Source: Pseudooceanicola onchidii
Lineage (GTDB): Bacteria > Pseudomonadota > Alphaproteobacteria > Rhodobacterales > Rhodobacteraceae
Assembly: GCF_004959925.1 (NCBI RefSeq)
Contig: NZ_SPUW01000001.1
Coordinates: 620,001-684,000, forward strand
Direction of reading: 5' to 3'
Length of the DNA: 64,000 nt
The notes under the pieces are model-generated. The model saw only the letters and a list, made by a program, of their open reading frames with translations. It was not told where the DNA came from and made no database searches. How positions within the stretch are numbered: the stretch's first letter is position 1; every line of letters starts with the position of its first letter. Positions 719 to 58,447 of the stretch are shown in pieces. Position numbers and translations under genes: made by a program.

Positions 719-1678
719 ATGGAGCCGACCACGCCAAGCTTCGATATCGCGCATCTGGGCCACATGGAGATGCTGACCGACCGCTATGACGAGAGCCTCG
801 ATTTCTTCACCCGGGTCTACGGGCTGAAGCTGTCGGCCGAAGACGAGACCTCGGCCTACCTGCGCGCCTGGGACGATTACGAATTCCACACGCTCAAGCT
901 GACGCGGGCCGAAACGACCGGGGTGGGGCACATCGGCTATCGCGCGGCCTCTCCGCAGGCGCTGGCGCGGCGGGTCGCGGCGATCGAGGCGTCCGGCTAC
1001 AAGACCCACGGCTGGGTCGAGGGCGATCCGGGGCACGGCCCGGCCTTCCGGTTCGAGGACCCCTTCGGCCATGTCTTCGAGATCTACTACGAAACCAAGT
1101 GGTACGAGGCGCAGCAGGACGCGGACCGCCCGGCGCTGAAGAACACGGCCTCGGCCTTTTCGGGCGCGGCGCCGCGGCGGATCGACCACCTGAACCTGCT
1201 GGCCTCGGACGTGGCCGAATTCCGGCGGTTCATGGAGGTCTGCCTTGGCAGTCGCGTGACCGAATACATCCAGCTGGACAACGGTCGGATCGGCGGCTGC
1301 TGGTTCACGGTGAACAACAAGACCTATGACCTGGCCTGCACCGAAGAACACGGCGGCGGTGACGGCCGTCTGCATCATGTCACCTATGCCACCGACCAGC
1401 GCGAGGACATCCTGCGCGCGGCCGACGTCTTCCTGCAGAACGGCGTGCATATCGAAACCGGGCCGCACAAGCATGCGATCCAGGGGACTTTCTTTCTGTA
1501 TGTCTGGGAGCCCGCCGGCAACCGGGTCGAACTGGCCAACGCCGGGGCGCGGCTGATCCTGGCGCCGGACTGGCAGCCGGTGAAATGGACGGAAGACGAC
1601 CGCAGGAAGGGGCAGGCCTGGGGCCTGAAGACGATCCCGACGTTCCACACCCACGGAACGCCGCCGGTGAAGGGCTAG
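719..1678 (+). CDS. Type I extradiol (VOC-fold) ring-cleavage dioxygenase
   Basis: A 319-residue protein with two vicinal-oxygen-chelate modules (about residues 5-125 and 150-285). The Fe(II) ligands of type I extradiol dioxygenases are visible in the second module: His157 (RIDHLNLL), His220 (RLHHVTY) and Glu271 (NRVELAN). Their spacing of 63 and 51 residues resembles BphC-type enzymes. It should open a catecholic ring next to the diol. I chose ATG 719 because AGGAGG at 708-713 precedes it; a TTG at 671 would add 16 unlikely residues inside the leader repeat. It sits between galB and galC homologues, so the product probably feeds the oxalomesaconate/CHA branch. The exact substrate (gallate, protocatechuate or a methoxylated form) cannot be read from sequence. 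Confidence 0.8.
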
Positions 1679-8384: not shown

Positions 8385-8900
8385 ATGACGTCTGACACGA
8401 ACACCCCGACCCGCGACCCCGTCTTCCGGGTGCTGGACCTTACGGCGCGGGCCTGCATGACCATCGCGGGCATCCAGCTGGTGACCCTGATCGCCATCTT
8501 CGGCTGGCTGGTCTTCGGTCGCTACGTGCTGAACGACACGCCGACCTGGGTCGAACAGGCCGCGCTGATGCTGGTGGTCTGGATCACCTTCCTTGGTGCG
8601 GCGGCCGGGGTCTGGAACCGGGCGCATCTGTCGATCGATTTCGTCCGGGAAATGATGCCCCCCGTCTTCCGTATCCCCCTGCGCTGGCTGGCGGTGCTGG
8701 GCGTGCTGATCTTCGCCGCCTACCTGGCCTGGTACGGCTGGGACCTGGCCGAGAAGACCTGGCGCCGTCGCATCCCGATGCTCGCCATCGCCGAGGGCTG
8801 GCGCGCCGTGCCCATGGCGGTCTGCGGCGTGCTGTCAGTCTTCTATTCCCTCTATCACCTCGCCATGCTTGTCCGTGGCCAAGACCCGGCGGAACTCTGA
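8385..8900 (+). CDS. TRAP transporter small permease (DctQ family)
   Basis: A 171-residue membrane protein with four predicted membrane segments, near residues 25-50, 60-80, 100-120 and 140-160. The amphipathic region has the usual WNRAHLSIDFVREMMP motif of DctQ proteins. It pairs with the large permease to couple uptake to an ion gradient. ATG 8385 follows CGGAGACACGG. The stop abuts the start of the large permease (8901) with no gap. Confidence 0.86.
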   Translation: MTSDTNTPTRDPVFRVLDLTARACMTIAGIQLVTLIAIFGWLVFGRYVLNDTPTWVEQAALMLVVWITFLGAAAGVWNRAHLSIDFVREMMPPVFRIPLRWLAVLGVLIFAAYLAWYGWDLAEKTWRRRIPMLAIAEGWRAVPMAVCGVLSVFYSLYHLAMLVRGQDPAEL

Positions 8901-41968: not shown

Positions 41969-42858
41969 AGCGCCTCAACCGCATCCTCGGGTGCCGATCG
42001 CACCACGCCGCGCAGCGTGTCGCGGGCCAGTTCCGCCGTTGCCTCGACCACCAGCCTGTCGAAATCGGCGTCGCCGCTTTCGCTCAGCCTGCGGGTCTCA
42101 TCTGAGAGCGCGGGATAGCTGCCCTCCCACGGGGCACCGTTGCGCAGACCGAAGCCCGCGATGACCTTGGCCGGGTTGCGTTCAAACTCGCCGCCGCCGC
42201 CCTTGATCACGCTCAGCTGGTCCCAGCCCAGAAGCGCCGCCGCATCCGCCTGCAACAACCGGTACGAGGGGTGAAAGACCCCCTGCACGCTGGCCCGCGC
42301 CCGGCCCGGATTGAGCATCCGGCAGACCGTGTTGACGCAGGACCGCAGCCCGAAGGTGTCGCGCAGGTTCAGCAGGGCAAAAAGCGCGGGGTGGGCGGTT
42401 TCGAGCGTCATGTAGGCGATGCCGTCGCGGGCCAGCAGGGCCTCGGCCTCGGTCGCCGTGGCGGCCATGCCGATGCCCGCATCCGGCAACCCGTCGCGCA
42501 CCTTGCGATCCGCGCCGTTCCAGCCATGCAGCAGCACGCGGTGGCCGTCGTCGGCGATGCGGCGGGCGGCGTGCAGAAACAGTGGCGCGCCCCGCGTCCG
42601 CCCCGCAGCGTAGGACGGCCAGTCCAGGTCGACCCCGCCGACCGGGGCAATCCCGGCCTGCGCGGCTTCGGCAAAGCCGGCGATTTCCGGGGCCGTTTCG
42701 CCCTTCATCCGCAGCAGCATGAGGATCGCGCCAACGGCCTCGGGCGCGGCTTCGCCCGACAGCATCTGGCGCATCGCGTCCGTGGCCTCTTCCCGCGTCA
42801 GCGACCGCGACCGCCCGGGGCCGCGTCCAAGGGTGCGCACGTGTTCGGCCAGGCTCAC
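41965..42858 (-). CDS. ybiB: YbiB/TrpD2-like protein (anthranilate phosphoribosyltransferase fold)
   Basis: A 297-residue protein of the glycosyltransferase family 3 fold. An N-terminal helical domain (SLTREEATDAMRQMLSGEA) is followed by the nucleoside phosphorylase-like domain. The phosphoribosyl-pyrophosphate loop is degenerate compared with TrpD, as in YbiB/TrpD2, whose E. coli member binds nucleic acid. It overlaps nasA by 4 nt (42855-42858), so it is co-translated with nitrate reductase. Its last 4 nt overlap the convergent methyltransferase gene. Its role in nitrate assimilation is unknown. Confidence 0.78.
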   Translation of the reverse strand: MSLAEHVRTLGRGPGRSRSLTREEATDAMRQMLSGEAAPEAVGAILMLLRMKGETAPEIAGFAEAAQAGIAPVGGVDLDWPSYAAGRTRGAPLFLHAARRIADDGHRVLLHGWNGADRKVRDGLPDAGIGMAATATEAEALLARDGIAYMTLETAHPALFALLNLRDTFGLRSCVNTVCRMLNPGRARASVQGVFHPSYRLLQADAAALLGWDQLSVIKGGGGEFERNPAKVIAGFGLRNGAPWEGSYPALSDETRRLSESGDADFDRLVVEATAELARDTLRGVVRSAPEDAVEAL

Positions 42859-48521: not shown

Positions 48522-49463
48522 TTAAAGGTACCAGGCCACGACGTGGCTGAGTTCACCGTGTTGATGGATGGGCAGCGCGACCATTGACGCATAGCCCGCC
48601 GTGATCCCCGGTTTGCCCGCCTCGATCACCGGCACGCCGGTGCCCAGCACGCGGCCGATGGCCCCCTGCCAGGCGACGGCCTTGCGTTCGTTGCCGGCGT
48701 TTTCGGGATCCCAGAGCGCGCCGTCGCGGGCACAGATCCCGTCGACCAGCCGCGCTTCGTTCGCGCTGCCGTTGCGGGCGGCGCGGGCGTCCCAGATCTC
48801 GAACCGGCGGGCGATCGGCGTGCCCTGGGCCGACAGCAGCGTGAGCACGAAGGACGTGTCGCCCGGCACCGGGATCGGCAGGCCCAATCCCGTCGTCAGT
48901 CCGGCCTTGGCCGCACTGTCGGCGCGGATGAACTTGTAGCCCGAACCGAGGTCGCGCATCAGCATCGGCGTGTGCGAGGACCAGACACCGCCGGGCAGGC
49001 CCTGGCCGCGCGGGAAATGCGTGTGCTGGCTGACCCATTCGAAATGCTTGGCGGCCCCGTAGTAGCCATCGTCGAGCATCAGGAGCCCGTCGTTTTCGTG
49101 CCAGACCTCGATCGCGCCGGTGCGCTGATCATCGTCGCCGCACAGCACGACCAGCACGGCCTTCAGCACCTTGCCATCGAAGACCGGGATCGCCACGGCC
49201 GAGGTCAGCCCGGCCTCGGCCGCGGCTTCGATCCGCTGAAAGTACGACCCGTCAAACCCCTTGAGCACGACCGGCCGTGCCTCGGCCCAGGCCTTGCCCG
49301 GCAGCCCTTCGCCCTTTGCGAAGGACACGCGGCGCGAGGCGTCTTCGAACGCGGCGAGGGTGCCATAGTCGCCCCCGGCATGGACCAGCGTGTCACCCTC
49401 GGGCACCCAGACCTCGGAGACCTGGATGAAGGTGCGGACCTCGGCGTCCAGAACCGTTTCCAT
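48522..49463 (-). CDS. GAF-repeat protein of the nitrate operon
   Basis: A 313-residue protein. Two related modules repeat the order FAKGEGLPGKAW ... AEAGLTSAVAIPV and FPRGQGLPGGVW ... AKAGLTTGLGLPI. A shorter third stretch (ITAGYASMVALPIHQHGE) suggests three GAF-like units without an output domain. ATG 49463 overlaps the ATPase TGA by one base (TGATG); GTG 49466 is possible. It lies between the transporter and nitrite reductase genes, so it may sense nitrate, nitrite or redox state, or bind a reductase subunit. Function unknown. Confidence 0.7.
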   Translation of the reverse strand: METVLDAEVRTFIQVSEVWVPEGDTLVHAGGDYGTLAAFEDASRRVSFAKGEGLPGKAWAEARPVVLKGFDGSYFQRIEAAAEAGLTSAVAIPVFDGKVLKAVLVVLCGDDDQRTGAIEVWHENDGLLMLDDGYYGAAKHFEWVSQHTHFPRGQGLPGGVWSSHTPMLMRDLGSGYKFIRADSAAKAGLTTGLGLPIPVPGDTSFVLTLLSAQGTPIARRFEIWDARAARNGSANEARLVDGICARDGALWDPENAGNERKAVAWQGAIGRVLGTGVPVIEAGKPGITAGYASMVALPIHQHGELSHVVAWYL

Positions 49464-51175
49464 CACGCGGCCTCCTTCTTCTTGGCGTCGGGCGTGGCCT
49501 TGGCGGTCTTTTCGGACTTTCCGGTCGCGCCGTGTTCGTATTCTTCAAGGAAATCGAGGACCTGCTCGCGGTAGAGGTAGTAATCCGGATGCTCCAGCAG
49601 CGCCTTGCGGGTGCGGGGGCGGGGCAGGTCGACGTTGACGATCTTGCCGATGGTGGCCTGCGGCCCGTTGGTCATCATGACGACGCGGTCGGCCAGCAGG
49701 ATTGCCTCGTCCACGTCATGGGTCACGCAGATCGCGGTGACCTTGGTGCGGGACCAGACCTCCATGAGAACCTCCTGCAGCTCCCACCTTGTCAGGCTGT
49801 CGAGCATGCCGAAGGGTTCATCCAGCAGCAGCAGCTTGGGCGACAGGGCAAAGGCCCGCGCGATGCCGACCCGCTGCTTCATGCCATTCGACATCTCGGA
49901 GGCGGACTTGTTCATCGCATCGCCAAGGCCCACCCGTTCAAGGTAATAGTCGACCACGTCCTGCCGTTCGGCCTGCGACGCCTTGGGATAGACCTTGTCG
50001 ACCCCGATCGCGACGTTTTCGCGGGCCGAGAGCCAGGGGAAAAGGTTTGGCGACTGGAAGACGACGGCCCGTTCGGGGTCGGCCCCCTGCACGTCATAGC
50101 CATCCAGCTTGATCACGCCCTTCGAGATGTCGTTCAACCCCGCGACCATGGTCAGCACAGTGGACTTGCCGCAGCCCGAATGCCCGATGAGCGAGATGAA
50201 TTCCCCCCGGTCGAGTTTCAGGTTGAAGTCTTCGACGACCGTCAGCGGCCCCTTGGGGGTCGGGTAGATCTTGTGCAGCTGTTCGAACGAAAGATACCGC
50301 TGATCGATCAGGCCCTTCTGCGCGTCGGCCACGGCCGAGGGCAGGTTGGCGTCATGGGTGTGCTTGGGCTGGATGTCGGGCAGGATGCGCGACCCTTCCG
50401 GCTTGGCCTCGATGCCCACGTCCATCAGGTAGTTGGTGACCTCGGCCCGCAGCCTCTTGAAGGTATCGTCGTGGTTCATGGCCGACCGTTCGCGGGGACG
50501 CGGGATGGTCACCTTGAATTCGGCGCCAAGCGTCCCGTCGGGGTTCAGCGTGACGATCCGGTCGGCCAGCACGATGGCCTCGTCCACGTCGTTGGTGATC
50601 AGAACGCAGGTCTTGCGGTCGGCCTGCCAGATCGCCTCGATCTCGTCGGCGAGGTTGGCCCGGGTCAGCGCATCCAGCGCCGACAGCGGTTCGTCCAGCA
50701 GCAGGACCTCGGGGTTCATCGCCAGGGCCCGTGCCACGTTGACCCGCTGGCGCATCCCGCCCGACAGTTCGGCCGGGCGGCGGGTGGCGGCGTGGCTCAG
50801 CCCCACCATCTTGACGTAATGCGCGACCTTTTCGGACTTTTCCTTGGCGGGCATCGACGGGAAGACCGAATCCAGCGCCAGCCGGACGTTCCCTTCGACG
50901 GTCAGCCAGGGCATCAGCGAATAGCTTTGGAAGATCACGCCGCGTTCGGGGCCGGGGCCTTCGATCGGCTTGCCCTTGAAGGTGACCTCGCCGAAGGAGG
51001 GCGTCTCAAGCCCTGCCATCAGGTTGATCAAGGTCGTCTTGCCGGTGCCCGAAAAGCCCAGGATCACCAGGAATTCGCCCTCGGCGACCTCAAGGTCGAT
51101 CCCCTTGAGAACCGTCGTCAGCTGGGTGCCTTCGCCGAAGCCTTTGTAGACGTTGTCGAACTTGAGAATGCTCAT
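49463..51175 (-). CDS. Nitrate ABC transporter, fused double ATPase (NrtC/NrtD-like)
   Basis: A 570-residue chain with two complete ABC ATPase domains. The first (about 1-245) has GFSGTGKTT, LSGGMRQRVNVARA and LLLDEPLSALD. The second (about 295-540) has GHSGCGKST, SNGMKQRVGIARA and LLLDEPFGMLD. Cyanobacterial NrtC joins one ATPase to a substrate domain and NrtD is separate. Here the substrate domain is missing and two ATPases are joined, giving a built-in heterodimer. It drives nitrate uptake with NrtA and NrtB. A charged Lys/Ala-rich tail ends the protein. Confidence 0.88.
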   Translation of the reverse strand: MSILKFDNVYKGFGEGTQLTTVLKGIDLEVAEGEFLVILGFSGTGKTTLINLMAGLETPSFGEVTFKGKPIEGPGPERGVIFQSYSLMPWLTVEGNVRLALDSVFPSMPAKEKSEKVAHYVKMVGLSHAATRRPAELSGGMRQRVNVARALAMNPEVLLLDEPLSALDALTRANLADEIEAIWQADRKTCVLITNDVDEAIVLADRIVTLNPDGTLGAEFKVTIPRPRERSAMNHDDTFKRLRAEVTNYLMDVGIEAKPEGSRILPDIQPKHTHDANLPSAVADAQKGLIDQRYLSFEQLHKIYPTPKGPLTVVEDFNLKLDRGEFISLIGHSGCGKSTVLTMVAGLNDISKGVIKLDGYDVQGADPERAVVFQSPNLFPWLSARENVAIGVDKVYPKASQAERQDVVDYYLERVGLGDAMNKSASEMSNGMKQRVGIARAFALSPKLLLLDEPFGMLDSLTRWELQEVLMEVWSRTKVTAICVTHDVDEAILLADRVVMMTNGPQATIGKIVNVDLPRPRTRKALLEHPDYYLYREQVLDFLEEYEHGATGKSEKTAKATPDAKKKEAA

Positions 51176-53796: not shown

Positions 53797-53847
53797 CGTC
53801 TTTCCTTTCCAGATAGCTCCGGTCCGGCAAGGGACGGAGCATGAACG

Positions 53848-53900
53848 AAAAAAAGCCGCAGTACGTCACGCCTTGAGATGGGCGGAGTACGAGCGGCTTT
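53848..53900 (-). terminator. Intrinsic terminator in the nrtA leader (attenuator)
   Basis: On -, AAAGCCGC and GTAC pair with GTAC and GCGGCTTT (53893-53900/53887-53890 with 53861-53864/53852-53859), followed by a run of seven U. It sits about 50 nt upstream of the nrtA start, so it must be bypassed to express the operon. Its 5' arm is shared with the second AxxGxx hairpin. Confidence 0.82.
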
Positions 53901-53925
53901 GCTCAGCTTGTCCCTGTCGATGGGA
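53890..53925 (-). promoter_or_regulatory. Predicted NasT (ANTAR) dual hairpin in the nrtA leader
   Basis: On -, hairpin 1 is UCCC-AUCGACA-GGGA (53925-53911), with A and G at loop positions 1 and 4 and one extra loop base. Hairpin 2 is UGAGC-AAAGCC-GCUCG (53905-53890), a six-base loop with A1 and G4, reusing the 5' arm of the terminator. Linked AxxGxx hexaloop hairpins are the known ANTAR target. NasT binding should favour hairpin 2 and block termination. Confidence 0.72.
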
Positions 53926-54033
53926 AATTCAAAAACCGTCAGCGCCATTGCGTCCGGTTGCATTCTGGATAGGCCGCACAGCAGCAGGAAAAAAGATCAA
54001 AGCCGGGAAAAGGTCAGGATTCGACGATTTTGC

Positions 54034-54059: not shown

Positions 54060-54255
54060 TGTTTCATCAGATGCCCGGGGTGGGTCGCGAAAAATACGCG
54101 GCATCGGAACGGTCCGGGTTTCCCTCGGGCCGGGCACACGCCTGTATGCGTTGATCCCGGGCGGGTGATTCCTCGCGCAGCCGTCTGGTGTACAGGCCCC
54201 GGAAGGGCCCCGAAACACCTTGTCCCGCGTCCCGCTGCGGCGCAGAATTGGAGCC

Positions 54256-54840
54256 ATGGCCAACCAGCTTTCCATCCTTGTCGTTGAATCGGATCGGGAC
54301 CGGGCGTTGCAGATCGTCGATGGTCTGGGCGGCGGCGACCAGTTCGCGATCTCCGTCATCTCTGAATCCTCCGGGCTTGCGCGGCGCGTCGCCGAACTGA
54401 ACCCCGACGTGGTGCTGATCGACCTTGAAAGCCCCTCGCGCGATATTCTTGAAGAGCTCGCCTCGGCGTCCGGCCCGCTGGAACGTCCCGTGGCGATGTT
54501 CGTGGACCGGTCCGACGACGGGCTGACCCGTGCAGCGGTCGAAGCGGGGGTATCGGCCTATGTCGTGGACGGTCTGCAGACGCATCGCATCCGGCCCGTG
54601 CTGGATGCGGCAATCAGCCGGTTTTCCGTCTTCAAGCGGATGCGGACCGAGCTTGAGACCACGAAGCGCGCGCTGGAAGAACGCAAGGTCATCGACCGCG
54701 CCAAGGGCATCTTGATGAAATCCAAGGGCCTGTCGGAAGAAGAGGCCTATGCCATGCTGCGCAAGACCGCGATGGACCGGGGCCGACGCCTGTCGGACGT
54801 GGCCGAGGCGCTGGTGACCGCGGCGGGTCTGCTGTCATGA
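54256..54840 (+). CDS. nasT: NasT: ANTAR RNA-binding antiterminator
   Basis: A 194-residue protein. The N-terminal pseudo-receiver domain (about 5-125) has SILVVESDRD and VLIDLESPS. The C-terminal ANTAR three-helix domain (about 130-192) has AKGILMKSKGLSEEEAYAML, the conserved RNA-binding pattern. NasT binds paired hairpins in nas leader RNA and prevents termination when released from NasS by nitrate or nitrite. The start is ATG 54256. It overlaps nasS by 4 nt and diverges from nrtA. Candidate target hairpins are in the nrtA and cysG leaders. Confidence 0.93.
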   Translation: MANQLSILVVESDRDRALQIVDGLGGGDQFAISVISESSGLARRVAELNPDVVLIDLESPSRDILEELASASGPLERPVAMFVDRSDDGLTRAAVEAGVSAYVVDGLQTHRIRPVLDAAISRFSVFKRMRTELETTKRALEERKVIDRAKGILMKSKGLSEEEAYAMLRKTAMDRGRRLSDVAEALVTAAGLLS

Positions 54841-55997
54841 GCGATGTGCTGACGGCAGGCTTCCTGCCCCTGACCGATGCCGCCCCGCTGATCGTTGCGC
54901 GCGAAATGGGTTTTGCCGCGGAAGAGGGGCTGGAGCTGTCGCTGATCAAGGCGACCTCGTGGTCGTCGCTGCGCGATTACCTTCTGTTGGGCAAGCTGGA
55001 CGCGGCCCAGATGCTGGCGCCGGTGCCGGTGGCCCATGCCCTTGGCCTTGGCGCGCTGGGCGGCATGGATGTGATCGCCGCGCTGAACCTGTCGGGCAAC
55101 GTCGTGTCGGTCAGCAAGGCGATCGCGGCGGAAATGCAGGCGGCGGGCTACGGGTTCGATTTCACCGACGCCGCCGCCGCCGGCCGCGCGCTGATCGCCC
55201 TGGGCCGGCCGCTGCGCATCGCCGTGCCCTTTCCCTTCTCGATGCATGCGGAACTTCTGTATTACTGGCTCGACACGCTCGGCCTTGCCGCGCCGCAGTC
55301 GCTGTCGGTGCGCACCGTTCCCCCGCCCCTGATGGCCGAGGCCATGGCCGACGGAGAGGTCGATGCCGTCTGCGTCGGCGAACCCTGGGGGTCGCTGGCG
55401 GTGGAAAACGGCGATGGCGTGATGTTGTTGCCGACCTCGGCGATCCGCCAATCCGCGATAGAAAAGGTGCTCGCGGTGCGCTCGGGCTGGGCCGAGGACA
55501 ACCCCGACCTGACCCGCAAGGCCCTGCGCGCACTTTGGCGGGCGGCAAGCTGGCTGGACCAGCCGGAAAAGCGGGAAGTCGCGGCCGAGATCATGGCGCG
55601 GCCGGATTACCTGGGCCTGCCGGTCGACCTTGTCGAACGCGGGTTGCGGGGCAATTTCACGATTTCGCCGCAGGGGGATCTGCGCGCCGCGCCCGGGTTC
55701 CTGACCTTCGCCAGCGGCGCGGCGGGCTTCCCCTGGCGGTCGCAGGCGGCCTGGATCGGGATGCGCATCGCCGCACGCACAGGGTTGGACCAGGCCGAGG
55801 CCATGGCCGCCGCCCGCGCGGTTTTCCGCACCGACATCTACCGCGATCACCTGCGGGGCGTCAGCGCGGATCTGCCAAGCGCATCGCAGAAACTGGAAGG
55901 CGGGCTGGACCACGCGACCGAGGTCGCCTCGGAAAGCGGGCGGGTCATCCTGCCGCCCGACCGGTTCTTCGACGGGACGGTCTTCGACCCGGACTGA
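54837..55997 (+). CDS. nasS: NasS: nitrate/nitrite sensor (NrtA-like, cytoplasmic)
   Basis: A 386-residue NrtA/CmpA-fold protein without a signal peptide. Its opening TAGFLPLTDAAPLIVAREMGF and VCVGEPWGSLAV parallel nrtA, but it stays in the cytoplasm. NasS holds NasT inactive and lets it go on binding nitrate or nitrite. It overlaps nasT (ATGA 54837-54840). Confidence 0.92.
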   Translation: MSDVLTAGFLPLTDAAPLIVAREMGFAAEEGLELSLIKATSWSSLRDYLLLGKLDAAQMLAPVPVAHALGLGALGGMDVIAALNLSGNVVSVSKAIAAEMQAAGYGFDFTDAAAAGRALIALGRPLRIAVPFPFSMHAELLYYWLDTLGLAAPQSLSVRTVPPPLMAEAMADGEVDAVCVGEPWGSLAVENGDGVMLLPTSAIRQSAIEKVLAVRSGWAEDNPDLTRKALRALWRAASWLDQPEKREVAAEIMARPDYLGLPVDLVERGLRGNFTISPQGDLRAAPGFLTFASGAAGFPWRSQAAWIGMRIAARTGLDQAEAMAAARAVFRTDIYRDHLRGVSADLPSASQKLEGGLDHATEVASESGRVILPPDRFFDGTVFDPD

Positions 55998-56011: not shown

Positions 56012-57382
56012 TCAGGCCACCTGCCGCGCCGCATTCGCCAGCGACTTGGGGTACCGCACCATGATCACCGCCGGGCTGGCGATCGCTTCGGCCTGCACGG
56101 TCGCGGCCAGATCGCCCAGCATGCAAGTCACATGGCGCTCCTGTTGGGTGGAGGCCGCCGCGACGATGTCCACCGGGCAGGCTGCGGGCGCACCGCCCCG
56201 GATCAGCCCGGCCTGCACGTCCCGGGCCTTGTCGACGGCCATGTAGAAGGCCGTGGTCGTGCCCGGACGCACCAGCGTGGCGCTGTCGGGCGCGGCGTCG
56301 CCCGGGCGGCACATGCCGGTCGAGATGGTGAAGCTGTCGGTCTCTCCGCGTTCGGTCAGCGGTGTCTGGATCGTGGCGGCAGCGGCCGAGGCTGCAGTGA
56401 TCCCCGGCACGACCTCGACCTCGATCCCGGCAAGGCGCGCGGCGGTGATTTCCTCGGTCGCGCGGCCGAAGATCGACGGGTCGCCGGACTTCAGCCGCAC
56501 GACGCGCCGACCCTGCGCGGCCTCGGCCACGATCAGCTGGTCGATCCGCTCCTGCGGCCAGGCCGAGGCCCCGACGGCCTTGCCCACGTAGACGCGGTCG
56601 GCGTCGCGCCGGGCAAGCTCCAGCACCTCGGGATCGACCAGCCGGTCGTAGAAGATGATATCGGCCTGCTGCAACCGCTGCACCGCCCGCAGCGTCAGCA
56701 GGTCGCGCGCGCCGGGGCCTGCTCCGACCAGCGCGATATGACCGCGCCGTTCGGGGGCTGCACCGGCCTCGACCGCCGCCTTCAGCATCGACGCCGCCGC
56801 CCGTTCACGCCCCGCCAGATGCGCGCGAAAGGCGTCGCCGGTGAACGCCCATTCCCAAAACGCCCGGCGGTCTGGACGCGCGATGTGCTGTGCCACAGCC
56901 CCCCGCAACCGCCCCGCCAGCGCGACGAAGGACCCAAGGCGCGGCGACAGCATGGTCTCGACCTCGGTCTTGATCGCGCGGCCCAGAACCGGGGCCTGTC
57001 CTTCGGTGCCGATGGCCACGACCACCGGGTCGCGATCGACGATCGAGGGCGTGAAGGCATCGCAGAGCTCGGGCTGGTCGATCACGTTGACCACGGCCCC
57101 CGCAGCCCGGGCCTGCACGGCCAGCGCCACGTCCCACGCCGGGCAGCCGGTTCCGATGAAGACCAGCGCCGCGTTGTCAAAGACGCCGGCCGCATCGGTC
57201 ACGTGATCCGCCCGGCCCGTATCGACCAGCGCCTGAAGCTCGGCATCCAGCGCATGGGCCAGCAGGGTGATCCGGGCTTCGGTCTTGAGGATCAGTCGGG
57301 TCTTGCGGGCGATCTCCTCGCCTCCGCCGCACAGAACCACGCGGCGCCCGGCCATCTTGAGGAACATGGGGAAGGTCTTCAT
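56012..57382 (-). CDS. cysG: Siroheme synthase CysG (trifunctional)
   Basis: A 456-residue protein. The N-terminal precorrin-2 dehydrogenase/ferrochelatase half (about 1-205) begins with VVLCGGGEEIARKTRLIL. The C-terminal uroporphyrinogen-III methyltransferase half begins with LVGAGPGARDLLTLRAVQRL and has VVRLKSGDPSIFGR. It makes siroheme for NirB. ATG 57382 has AAGGAG upstream. Its leader holds a second predicted NasT-controlled terminator. Confidence 0.94.
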   Translation of the reverse strand: MKTFPMFLKMAGRRVVLCGGGEEIARKTRLILKTEARITLLAHALDAELQALVDTGRADHVTDAAGVFDNAALVFIGTGCPAWDVALAVQARAAGAVVNVIDQPELCDAFTPSIVDRDPVVVAIGTEGQAPVLGRAIKTEVETMLSPRLGSFVALAGRLRGAVAQHIARPDRRAFWEWAFTGDAFRAHLAGRERAAASMLKAAVEAGAAPERRGHIALVGAGPGARDLLTLRAVQRLQQADIIFYDRLVDPEVLELARRDADRVYVGKAVGASAWPQERIDQLIVAEAAQGRRVVRLKSGDPSIFGRATEEITAARLAGIEVEVVPGITAASAAAATIQTPLTERGETDSFTISTGMCRPGDAAPDSATLVRPGTTTAFYMAVDKARDVQAGLIRGGAPAACPVDIVAAASTQQERHVTCMLGDLAATVQAEAIASPAVIMVRYPKSLANAARQVA

Positions 57383-57402
57383 GGAACGCTCCTTGCAACG
57401 CG

Positions 57403-57452
57403 AAAAGGCCGCCGACAGCACATGACGAGGGTCATGATCGTCGGGCAGCCTT
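57403..57452 (-). terminator. Intrinsic terminator in the cysG leader (attenuator)
   Basis: On -, AAGGCUGCC(C)GAC (57452-57440) pairs with GUCGGCGGCCUU (57416-57405) with one bulged C and a U-G pair, followed by UUUU. An inner hairpin CATGAC/GTCATG (57421-57436) caps it. It lies 20 nt upstream of the cysG start. The U-run is short, so termination may be partial. Confidence 0.7.
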
Positions 57453-57478
57453 GCCCAAAATCCGGTCTGTCGGGATTT
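57441..57478 (-). promoter_or_regulatory. Predicted NasT (ANTAR) dual hairpin in the cysG leader
   Basis: On -, hairpin 1 is AAAUCCCG-ACAGAC-CGGAUUU (57478-57458), six-base loop with A1 and G4 and one bulged C. Hairpin 2 is UGGGC-AAGGCU-GCCCG (57457-57442), six-base loop with A1 and G4, and its loop and 3' arm are the 5' arm of the terminator. The arrangement matches the nrtA leader. Confidence 0.78.
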
Positions 57479-57598
57479 CGCGACGCCGTTGTCGCATGAA
57501 TAACGCCTAGCCGCAGGTCCGCGCGACGGGCAAGGATTATCGGCACCCGGCGCGGTCGGACCCCGCCGGATGCCCGAAACTTCAGCAGATGCGCGCGT

Positions 57599-58447
57599 CT
57601 ATTCGGCGACAACCCGGTTACGCAGCAGGCCGATCTGGTCGACCTCGACCTCGCAGACATCGCCCGGCTTCATCCACAGCTGCGGCTTGCGCGCCATGCC
57701 GACCCCGGCCGGAGTGCCAGTGACGATCAGGTCACCGACCTCAAGCGTCATGACCGCCGACAGCTTTTCGATCAGCGTGGCGACGTCATAGATCAGCGCG
57801 TCGGTATTGGCGTCCTGCACGACCTCGCCGTTGAGGCGGGTGGTGATGCGCAGGCCCTTGGCGCCCGCGGGCAGGGCATCGGCGGTGACGAAATCCGGTC
57901 CAAGCGCGCCGGTCGCGTCGAAGTTCTTGCCAAGGGTCCACTGCGGCGTGGCCATCTGGAAATCGCGGATCGACCCGTCGTTGAACAGCGTATAGCCCGC
58001 GACATGGTCCAGCGCGGCGTCGCGGCTGATGTGCCGCCCGCGCTTGCCGATCACTGCCACGACCTCGCCTTCATAGTCGAACTGGTCCGAGGCCGTCGGG
58101 CAGACCAGATCGCCCTCGTGTGGCACGAGGTTGTCGTTGAACCGGACAAAGACCGTCGGATAGGGCGGTGCCTCGTGCCCCGTTTCGGACGCGTGGTCGG
58201 CATAGTTCAACCCGACGCACAGCACCTTTCCGGCACGCGTGAAGGGCAGGGCGGGCGTGATGGAGGCCGGGTCGATCACATCGCCCGCCGCCAGCACCTT
58301 GGCCGCCTGGTCGAGCGTCCCCGCCCGAAGGATATCATCCAGCGATCCGGGGAAGGAGGCATCCTCCTCGAGCAGGCCGGCATATCCGGCCCCGGTCTGA
58401 ATGGCGAGCCCGGCGACACCGTCGCGAGTGAAAGCAAAAAAGCGCAT
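57599..58447 (-). CDS. Fumarylacetoacetate hydrolase family protein
   Basis: A 282-residue FAH-superfamily enzyme. Metal ligands are visible in the DYEGEVVAVIG and FNDGSIRDFQ segments, and the C-terminal GDLIVTGTPAGVGM loop is standard. ATG 58447 follows GGGAGGACCTC. Members cleave acylpyruvates, hydrate 2-oxo-pent-4-enoates or decarboxylate oxaloacetate. Nothing nearby fixes the substrate. It lies between cysG and a thioredoxin gene with no clear operon. Confidence 0.85.
   Translation of the reverse strand: MRFFAFTRDGVAGLAIQTGAGYAGLLEEDASFPGSLDDILRAGTLDQAAKVLAAGDVIDPASITPALPFTRAGKVLCVGLNYADHASETGHEAPPYPTVFVRFNDNLVPHEGDLVCPTASDQFDYEGEVVAVIGKRGRHISRDAALDHVAGYTLFNDGSIRDFQMATPQWTLGKNFDATGALGPDFVTADALPAGAKGLRITTRLNGEVVQDANTDALIYDVATLIEKLSAVMTLEVGDLIVTGTPAGVGMARKPQLWMKPGDVCEVEVDQIGLLRNRVVAE

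Follow-up and report, generated by a model that had tools for sequence, protein, structure and literature searches.

A candidate NasT-type antitermination leader upstream of the siroheme synthase gene cysG in Pseudooceanicola onchidii

Described ANTAR targets and the nitrate locus

The RNA targets of ANTAR-domain antiterminators, as described in the portions of the cited sources that we consulted, consist of two hairpins joined by a variable linker, with hexaloops that have A at position 1 and G at position 4 (A1/G4) (PMC3369931). The motif obtained for NasR by SELEX comprises two hairpins with A1/G4 loops and a terminal C:G pair (PMC7496416). In the eut system of E. faecalis the linker is 5–12 nt long, and a linker of 14 nt impairs induction (PMC3369931). 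In Paracoccus denitrificans, the NasS-NasT complex dissociates on nitrate or nitrite; NasT, which is oligomeric once freed, binds to the leader of nasA (PMC3795266); a nasT mutant is without the nasABGHC transcript (PMC5424462). The nirBD-PA1779-cobA operon of P. aeruginosa is reported to be under NasT antitermination (Romeo et al. 2012, cited in PMC8092218 and PMC12830290). The NasT of B. diazoefficiens interacts with the nosR leader, and NasT hairpins have been predicted there before nirA and coxS (PMC6759348), while cysG of S. meliloti is co-transcribed with narB (PMC6616083). No report of a NasT leader specific to cysG was found in the literature searched, in agreement with the preliminary description of this locus, which knew of no such target; words starting with "siro" or "cys" occur 0 times in the text of PMC6759348. 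An earlier computational listing among the supplementary targets of PMC3369931 is possible, and in the parts of the literature consulted P. aeruginosa cobA offers a precedent for siroheme at the level of an operon.

We analyzed a stretch of 64,000 nucleotides from P. onchidii (the window), in which nasT and nasS adjoin cysG. The nasT gene (54220–54840, plus strand) encodes an ANTAR-domain antiterminator (PF03861, E 7e-24), and a search with its sequence returned only itself in its own genome (E ≤ 0.001). It is followed by nasS (54837–55997, plus strand), a putative nitrate/nitrite sensor of the NMT1_2 family (PF13379, E 2.1e-64). The cysG gene (56012–57382, minus strand, ATG at 57382) encodes a full-length siroheme synthase of 456 aa (PRK10637, 499.9 bits against a cut-off of 400). 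A nitrate cluster, nrtA-nrtB-nrtC-GAF gene-nirB-nirD-nasA, runs on the minus strand from 53796. The names nrtA, nrtB, nasA and nasS were given by context, for nasS its position beside nasT, their scores being under the NCBIfam cut-offs. The gene between nrtC and nirB in this cluster (48522–49466, minus strand) encodes a GAF-domain protein.

Anatomy and folding of the cysG leader

On the minus strand upstream of cysG, three hairpins, H1, H2 and H3 in 5' to 3' order, are followed by a predicted intrinsic terminator. H1 (57480–57495; GCGAC-AACGGC-GTCGC) was recovered by a motif finder, in alignments and in the fold of a 60-nt prefix; its hexaloop at 57490–57485 has A1 and G4 and is closed by a C-G pair. 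Folding placed H2 at 57457–57479, with the loop ACAGAC at 57470–57465. H3 (57443–57456; GGGC-AAGGCT-GCCC), which emerged from the motif finder, the alignments and the covariation, presents a hexaloop at 57452–57447 that also has A1, G4 and a closing C-G pair. The terminator (57403–57452), seen in folds and alignment, pairs a 5' arm at 57452–57440 with a 3' arm at 57416–57405, and its T run (57406–57403) is short in the window, with 4 T. H3 and the terminator are mutually exclusive, since the terminator 5' arm takes in both the loop and the 3' arm of H3. The leader has the features by which ANTAR targets are defined: two hairpins with stems of 3 bp or more, a variable linker and A1/G4 hexaloops (AACGGC in H1, AAGGCT in H3), a second hairpin that is predicted to overlap and exclude the terminator, with pairing support in both folds, and an ANTAR protein (NasT, PF03861) in the same genome. 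The terminal C:G pair of the NasR SELEX motif closes the loops of both H1 and H3.

The preliminary description had reported a dual hairpin with the loops ACAGAC and AAGGCU, both A1/G4, whose second stem shares its 3' arm with the terminator. Both hairpins are present, and the folds bear out the sharing, with the H3 loop also involved. The hairpin taken to be the first is the middle one of three, H1 having been missed. H3 is conserved with A1/G4; the loop that is A1/G4 in every one of the 59 leaders measured below belongs to H1 rather than being ACAGAC. The pairing of H2 with H3 as the full motif was rejected on account of H1 upstream and the conserved A1/G4 loops in H1 and H3.

Visual reading of the aligned upstream regions, in which the row of locus L020 is misanchored, gave a weak candidate promoter (57504–57533, minus strand) with TTGCCC at 57533–57528, an 18-nt spacer and TAGGCG at 57509–57504. 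If this pair is correct, it would weakly suggest that the transcript starts just 5' of H1. A simple scanner found no match to the sigma-70 promoter consensus at the cysG leader and, with its loop limit of 8 nt, also missed the cysG terminator. The ribosome site of cysG, AAGGAG at 57394–57389 as read by eye, lies 3' of the terminator, which points to transcriptional rather than translational control.

Folding was compared with that of shuffled sequences. The region 57401–57480 folds better than chance (z −4.1), as does the terminator part 57401–57456 (z −4.4), and in neither case did any of 200 shuffles do as well; the folding of the 36-nt piece 57445–57480 alone was no better than chance (z −0.5). 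The ACAGAC hexaloop is seen in the centroid fold, and the minimum-energy fold narrows the H2 loop to 5 nt. A 60-nt prefix of the leader adopts the H1-H2-H3 fold with a modest gain over shuffles (z −1.9), a 56-nt prefix without the end of H3 gives another structure instead of the H1-H2-H3 fold, and the full-length leader adopts the terminator fold with H1 opened (z −2.8).

We propose that the cysG leader is, with high probability, a nitrate-responsive transcription antiterminator that is read by NasT and serves a dedicated siroheme synthase. This proposal is based on the anatomy of the leader, its conservation and covariation, its co-occurrence with nasT and the RNA family that it shares with the nrtA leaders; from these we infer NasT binding, a nitrate response and read-through at the cysG leader. 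Without nitrate, NasS would hold NasT, the nascent leader would form the terminator (57452–57403) and polymerase would stop 5' of cysG. With nitrate or nitrite, NasT would be freed and would bind H1 and H3 at their A1/G4 hexaloops, while H2 could serve as a spacer or as a third NasT contact. Stabilization of H3 would block the terminator because the H3 loop and 3' arm belong to the terminator 5' arm. The leader of nrtABC-nirBD-nasA would work likewise, and if both leaders are controlled by NasT, siroheme supply would climb together with the siroheme enzyme NirB.

Conservation, loop letters and RNA family of the leader

The leader was examined in the window and 80 related cysG loci, the best 80 of 147 sampled. 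It was present at all 16 cysG genes with a free upstream region (the window and 15 loci) and at 0 of the remaining 65. In 64 of these 65, the end of an open reading frame of 150 aa or more falls within a span from 25 nt 5' of the cysG start to 3 nt 3' of it; the remaining one (L077) is cut by a contig end. A NasA match lies within the locus in 62 of the 65 (the exceptions being L023, L055 and L077), and a majority of the related loci found have cysG within a nas operon.

A strict motif finder with a loop distance limit of 40 picked H1 and H3 in 8 of the 16 leaders, and the other 8 were assigned by eye and alignment. When the aligned leaders were scored for the H1/H2/H3 fold, 95.0% of cells were paired and 4 pairs had changed on both sides; the covariation was 0.248 compared to a shuffled mean of 0.173, a value reached by 0 of 500 shuffles. 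The terminator-containing form had 93.7% of cells paired and 7 pairs changed on both sides, with a covariation of 0.316 against a shuffled mean of 0.223, also reached by 0 of 500 shuffles; both of these shuffle controls are inflated by kinship. In the terminator itself, 4 of the 11 pairs have changes on both sides. Sliding the partners lowered the paired cells to 22–51% for H1-H2-H3 and to 33–66% for the terminator form, a control that is biased in that the structure was drawn from the same sequences.

The letters of the loops were measured in 59 distinct leaders (18 cysG, 2 SUMT and 39 nas-linked), which remained after duplicates were removed from 64 matches; the counts are not selection-free, as the collecting model rewards such letters. 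The H1 loop has A1 and G4 in 59 of 59 with a closing C-G pair in 58, and the H3 loop has A1 in 56, G4 in 59 and the closing C-G pair in 59. The loop starts of H1 and H3 are 38 nt apart in the window, 35–53 nt in 58 of the 59 leaders and 27 nt in L023. H2 has the form CCC-N7-GGG in 33 leaders, where loop position 4 is G in 33/33 and position 1 is a purine in 32/33; it is a CCCG-ANNGNN-CGGG hexaloop in 6 and has other forms or is absent in 20. The semi-conserved form of H2 in other leaders is CCC-RNNGANN-GGG. H2 is therefore a conserved element that is not universal.

These counts bear on a variant that overlaps with our proposal, namely that NasT control is exerted through H2 and H3 as the active pair and that H1 is accessory. 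Both H2 and H3 can present A1/G4 hexaloops in the window and the two hairpins adjoin. Moreover, R1/G4 letters occur in the strongest linker hairpin of 22/59 leaders, compared to a mean of 4.0 and a maximum of 11 for 200 base-shuffled linkers (kinship ignored), and the H2 G4 is found in 31/34 leaders of the nrtA alignment. However, the A1/G4 letters in 59/59 and the C-G closure in 58/59 belong to H1 and not to H2, H2 takes the CCC-N7-GGG form in 12 of the 18 cysG leaders, and the L023 leader is without H2. We regard this variant as unlikely and continue with H1 and H3 as the pair that NasT would bind.

The relationship between the cysG and nrtA leaders was examined with RNA-family models. R1 was built from the 16 cysG leaders only. 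In its own genome it found two good sites, cysG and the nrtA leader of the window, with E values of 1.3e-14 and 2.9e-6, the latter at 40.0 bits; the next match had an E of 0.43. The best 30 R1 matches listed across 198 family genomes are all upstream of nas or siroheme genes. Of these, 23 precede nrtA, 5 precede full cysG, one precedes a SUMT-only gene and one is at another nasTS-linked position. The R1 matches L166 (23.5 bits) and L167 (23.7 bits) were left out of the 59-leader counts. An R1 match in L066 (29.3 bits, E 4.5e-4) was discarded as a target because it falls within an open reading frame.

R3 was built from 34 nrtA leaders, none of them from the window genome. Its training set was 34 of the 39 nas-linked leaders, with L023, L035, L088, L119 and L123 excluded. 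R3 is only partly independent of R1, as its training leaders had first been gathered with R1. With R3, the window cysG leader scores 45.8 bits (E 7e-8 in 1.6 Mb). The other NasT-type leader of the window, 5' of nrtA-nrtB-nrtC-(GAF)-nirB-nirD-nasA (53844–53959, minus strand; found with both R1 and R3), scores 65.8 bits. These are the same two sites as with R1 in the window genome, the next R3 match there having an E of 1.6. At E ≤ 3.5e-5 R3 matches 13 of the 16 cysG leaders, and it is weak on the other three, L017, L018 and L020 (E 0.007, 0.015 and 0.31). It had no match beside the cysG start in any of the 65 leaderless loci. The match to the nrtA model, the conservation of the leader and its co-occurrence with nasT favor the earlier suggestion that siroheme synthesis may be co-controlled with nitrate/nitrite reductase by NasT antitermination.

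The weak R3 scores of L017, L018 and L020, together with the short T run in the window, could also indicate that the hairpins are a relic, the cysG leader being an nrtA-type copy that has decayed or is passive, with cysG expressed constitutively. This is very unlikely, as compensatory changes are found in both alternative folds and H1 retains A1/G4 and the closing C-G pair in all 18 cysG leaders. Further evidence against a relic is the presence of the leader in every one of the 18 sampled members of a single clade, two of which were added for their leader matches. The CysG proteins of these members (the window, the 15 loci and the two added genomes) form this clade with an SH-aLRT of 100, nested among leaderless CysG, in a quickly searched tree in which the outgroup row L003 is very long.

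Co-occurrence with nasT and other siroheme genes

Of the 198 family genomes, 82 gave a nasT match (E ≤ 1e-25) and the other 116 did not. R1 matches at E ≤ 1e-3 were confined to 53 genomes with nasT, none of the 116 others having one (Fisher p 2e-27, kinship ignored), and 29 nasT genomes had no R1 match at that threshold; at E ≤ 0.01 the numbers were 55/82 and 4/116. The genomes of 14 of the 15 leader-bearing cysG loci (all but L014) were searched for nasT, and each of the 14 carries one. The nrtA leader is also found in 13 of these 14 genomes; one (L164) has it only at E 0.125.

Since the gene product makes siroheme, feedback is plausible, and the leader could be controlled by a factor other than NasT, such as a siroheme or heme riboswitch or another protein, with its ANTAR resemblance a matter of appearance only. 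Searches with the Rfam covariance models argue against this possibility, as they returned no match in 57300–57620 up to an E of 1, and only one tRNA at the gathering threshold in the whole window. In addition, the cysG and nrtA leaders belong to one RNA family, the matches at E ≤ 1e-3 are restricted to nasT genomes and the ANTAR letters are present in the H1 hexaloop as well as in that of H3. Control by another factor is very unlikely, and NasT is the favored reader of the cysG leader.

Gene order in the related loci places a TrpD-like gene between nasA and cysG where this was checked. In the window, a TrpD-like stretch (Glycos_trans_3N type; 42076–42852, minus strand) comes straight after nasA, and cysG is elsewhere. 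In L009 and L011 cysG is still behind the nas genes and the TrpD-like gene, and the leader is already present. In L023 a leader (8617–8710, plus strand) comes after nasTS, with a TrpD-like gene and cysG about 300 nt further along; this leader scores weakly (26.7 bits with R1, 28.5 bits with R3).

NasT-type leaders were also found before stand-alone genes for SUMT (uroporphyrinogen-III methyltransferase). One is in Salipiger bermudensis (L153, 1501–1610, minus strand), which has three leaders, before cysG, SUMT and nrtA, and a second precedes a SUMT-only gene in L099 (G088; 1501–1609, plus strand). H2 is an A1/G4 hexaloop in both SUMT leaders. The window genome holds a second CysG-like protein (L169, 99–1522, plus strand), the next-best CysG relative with 36% identity, whose methylase domain is under the Pfam cut-off. 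Its gene sits in a sulfate-assimilation cluster (DUF2849 / NIR_SIR / PAPS reductase), and the leader models gave no match at it in searches of this genome.

A class-wide search of 385 genomes with the R2 model gave matches in 12 of them at E ≤ 0.01, among them the window genome. Seven of the 13 further loci from this search (L170–L176) adjoin nas-type genes. H1/H3-like hairpins were recognized by eye in L170–L174 and L176; L175 is without them. The matches L177–L182 look like chance by eye and were rejected. In L173 (1501–1618, minus strand; G567, from another family of the class), the leader lies before a nirB-like gene and has three hairpins that fit A1/G4 by eye. L173 suggests that the three-hairpin layout extends past the family of the window.

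We tentatively propose, as a possibility with somewhat less than even chances, that NasT targets of this alphaproteobacterial kind are three-hairpin antiterminators in which H1, H2 and H3 all tend to R1/G4 and an oligomeric NasT reads three loops. As part of the same tentative proposal, the switch would have been placed repeatedly before siroheme genes: in the cysG clade, at the Salipiger-type SUMT/cobA and possibly at the TrpD-like-cysG unit behind nasTS.

Comparison with described systems

The switch is of a known kind, for which cysG may be a new target, and the three-hairpin layout is possibly a variant of it. The NasT regulon likely gains a cofactor gene through a dedicated leader, which would tie siroheme supply to the demand of nitrite reductase even for a cysG outside the nitrate operon. 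The locus also offers an evolutionary case, in which a gene at the end of an operon in related loci becomes separate and bears the same RNA switch. Because one genome has two siroheme synthase genes, one with and one without a leader match, their dependence on nitrate is directly comparable.

As far as the consulted parts of the sources go, the resemblance to the P. aeruginosa nirBD-PA1779-cobA operon is that NasT control reaches a siroheme-pathway gene, here cysG and there cobA; however, cobA shares its operon with nirBD, whereas the window cysG has a leader of its own. The B. diazoefficiens case is similar to the window in that NasT hairpins stand before separate nitrogen genes, that for nitrite reductase included (PMC6759348). 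P. denitrificans has the same NasS-NasT pair and a hairpin leader before its nitrate genes (PMC3795266, PMC5424462); its target is the nas operon and that in the window is cysG. By eye and fold, the nasS-nasA gap on the P. denitrificans plasmid contains the hairpin GGCGC-AACGGC-GCGCC, whose loop is identical to that of the window H1, and a hairpin with the loop GACGAT. R1 gave no match to the P. denitrificans nasA leader, and H3 was not recognized there by eye. The EutV and NasR targets, in the parts described in PMC3369931 and PMC7496416, are like the cysG leader in their A1/G4 hexaloops, their closing C-G pairs and a second hairpin that is exclusive with the terminator. They differ in spacing: the eut linker is short, whereas a third hairpin usually lies between the two conserved loops here, a separation by a hairpin rather than by a short linker that bears on how ANTAR proteins recognize their targets.
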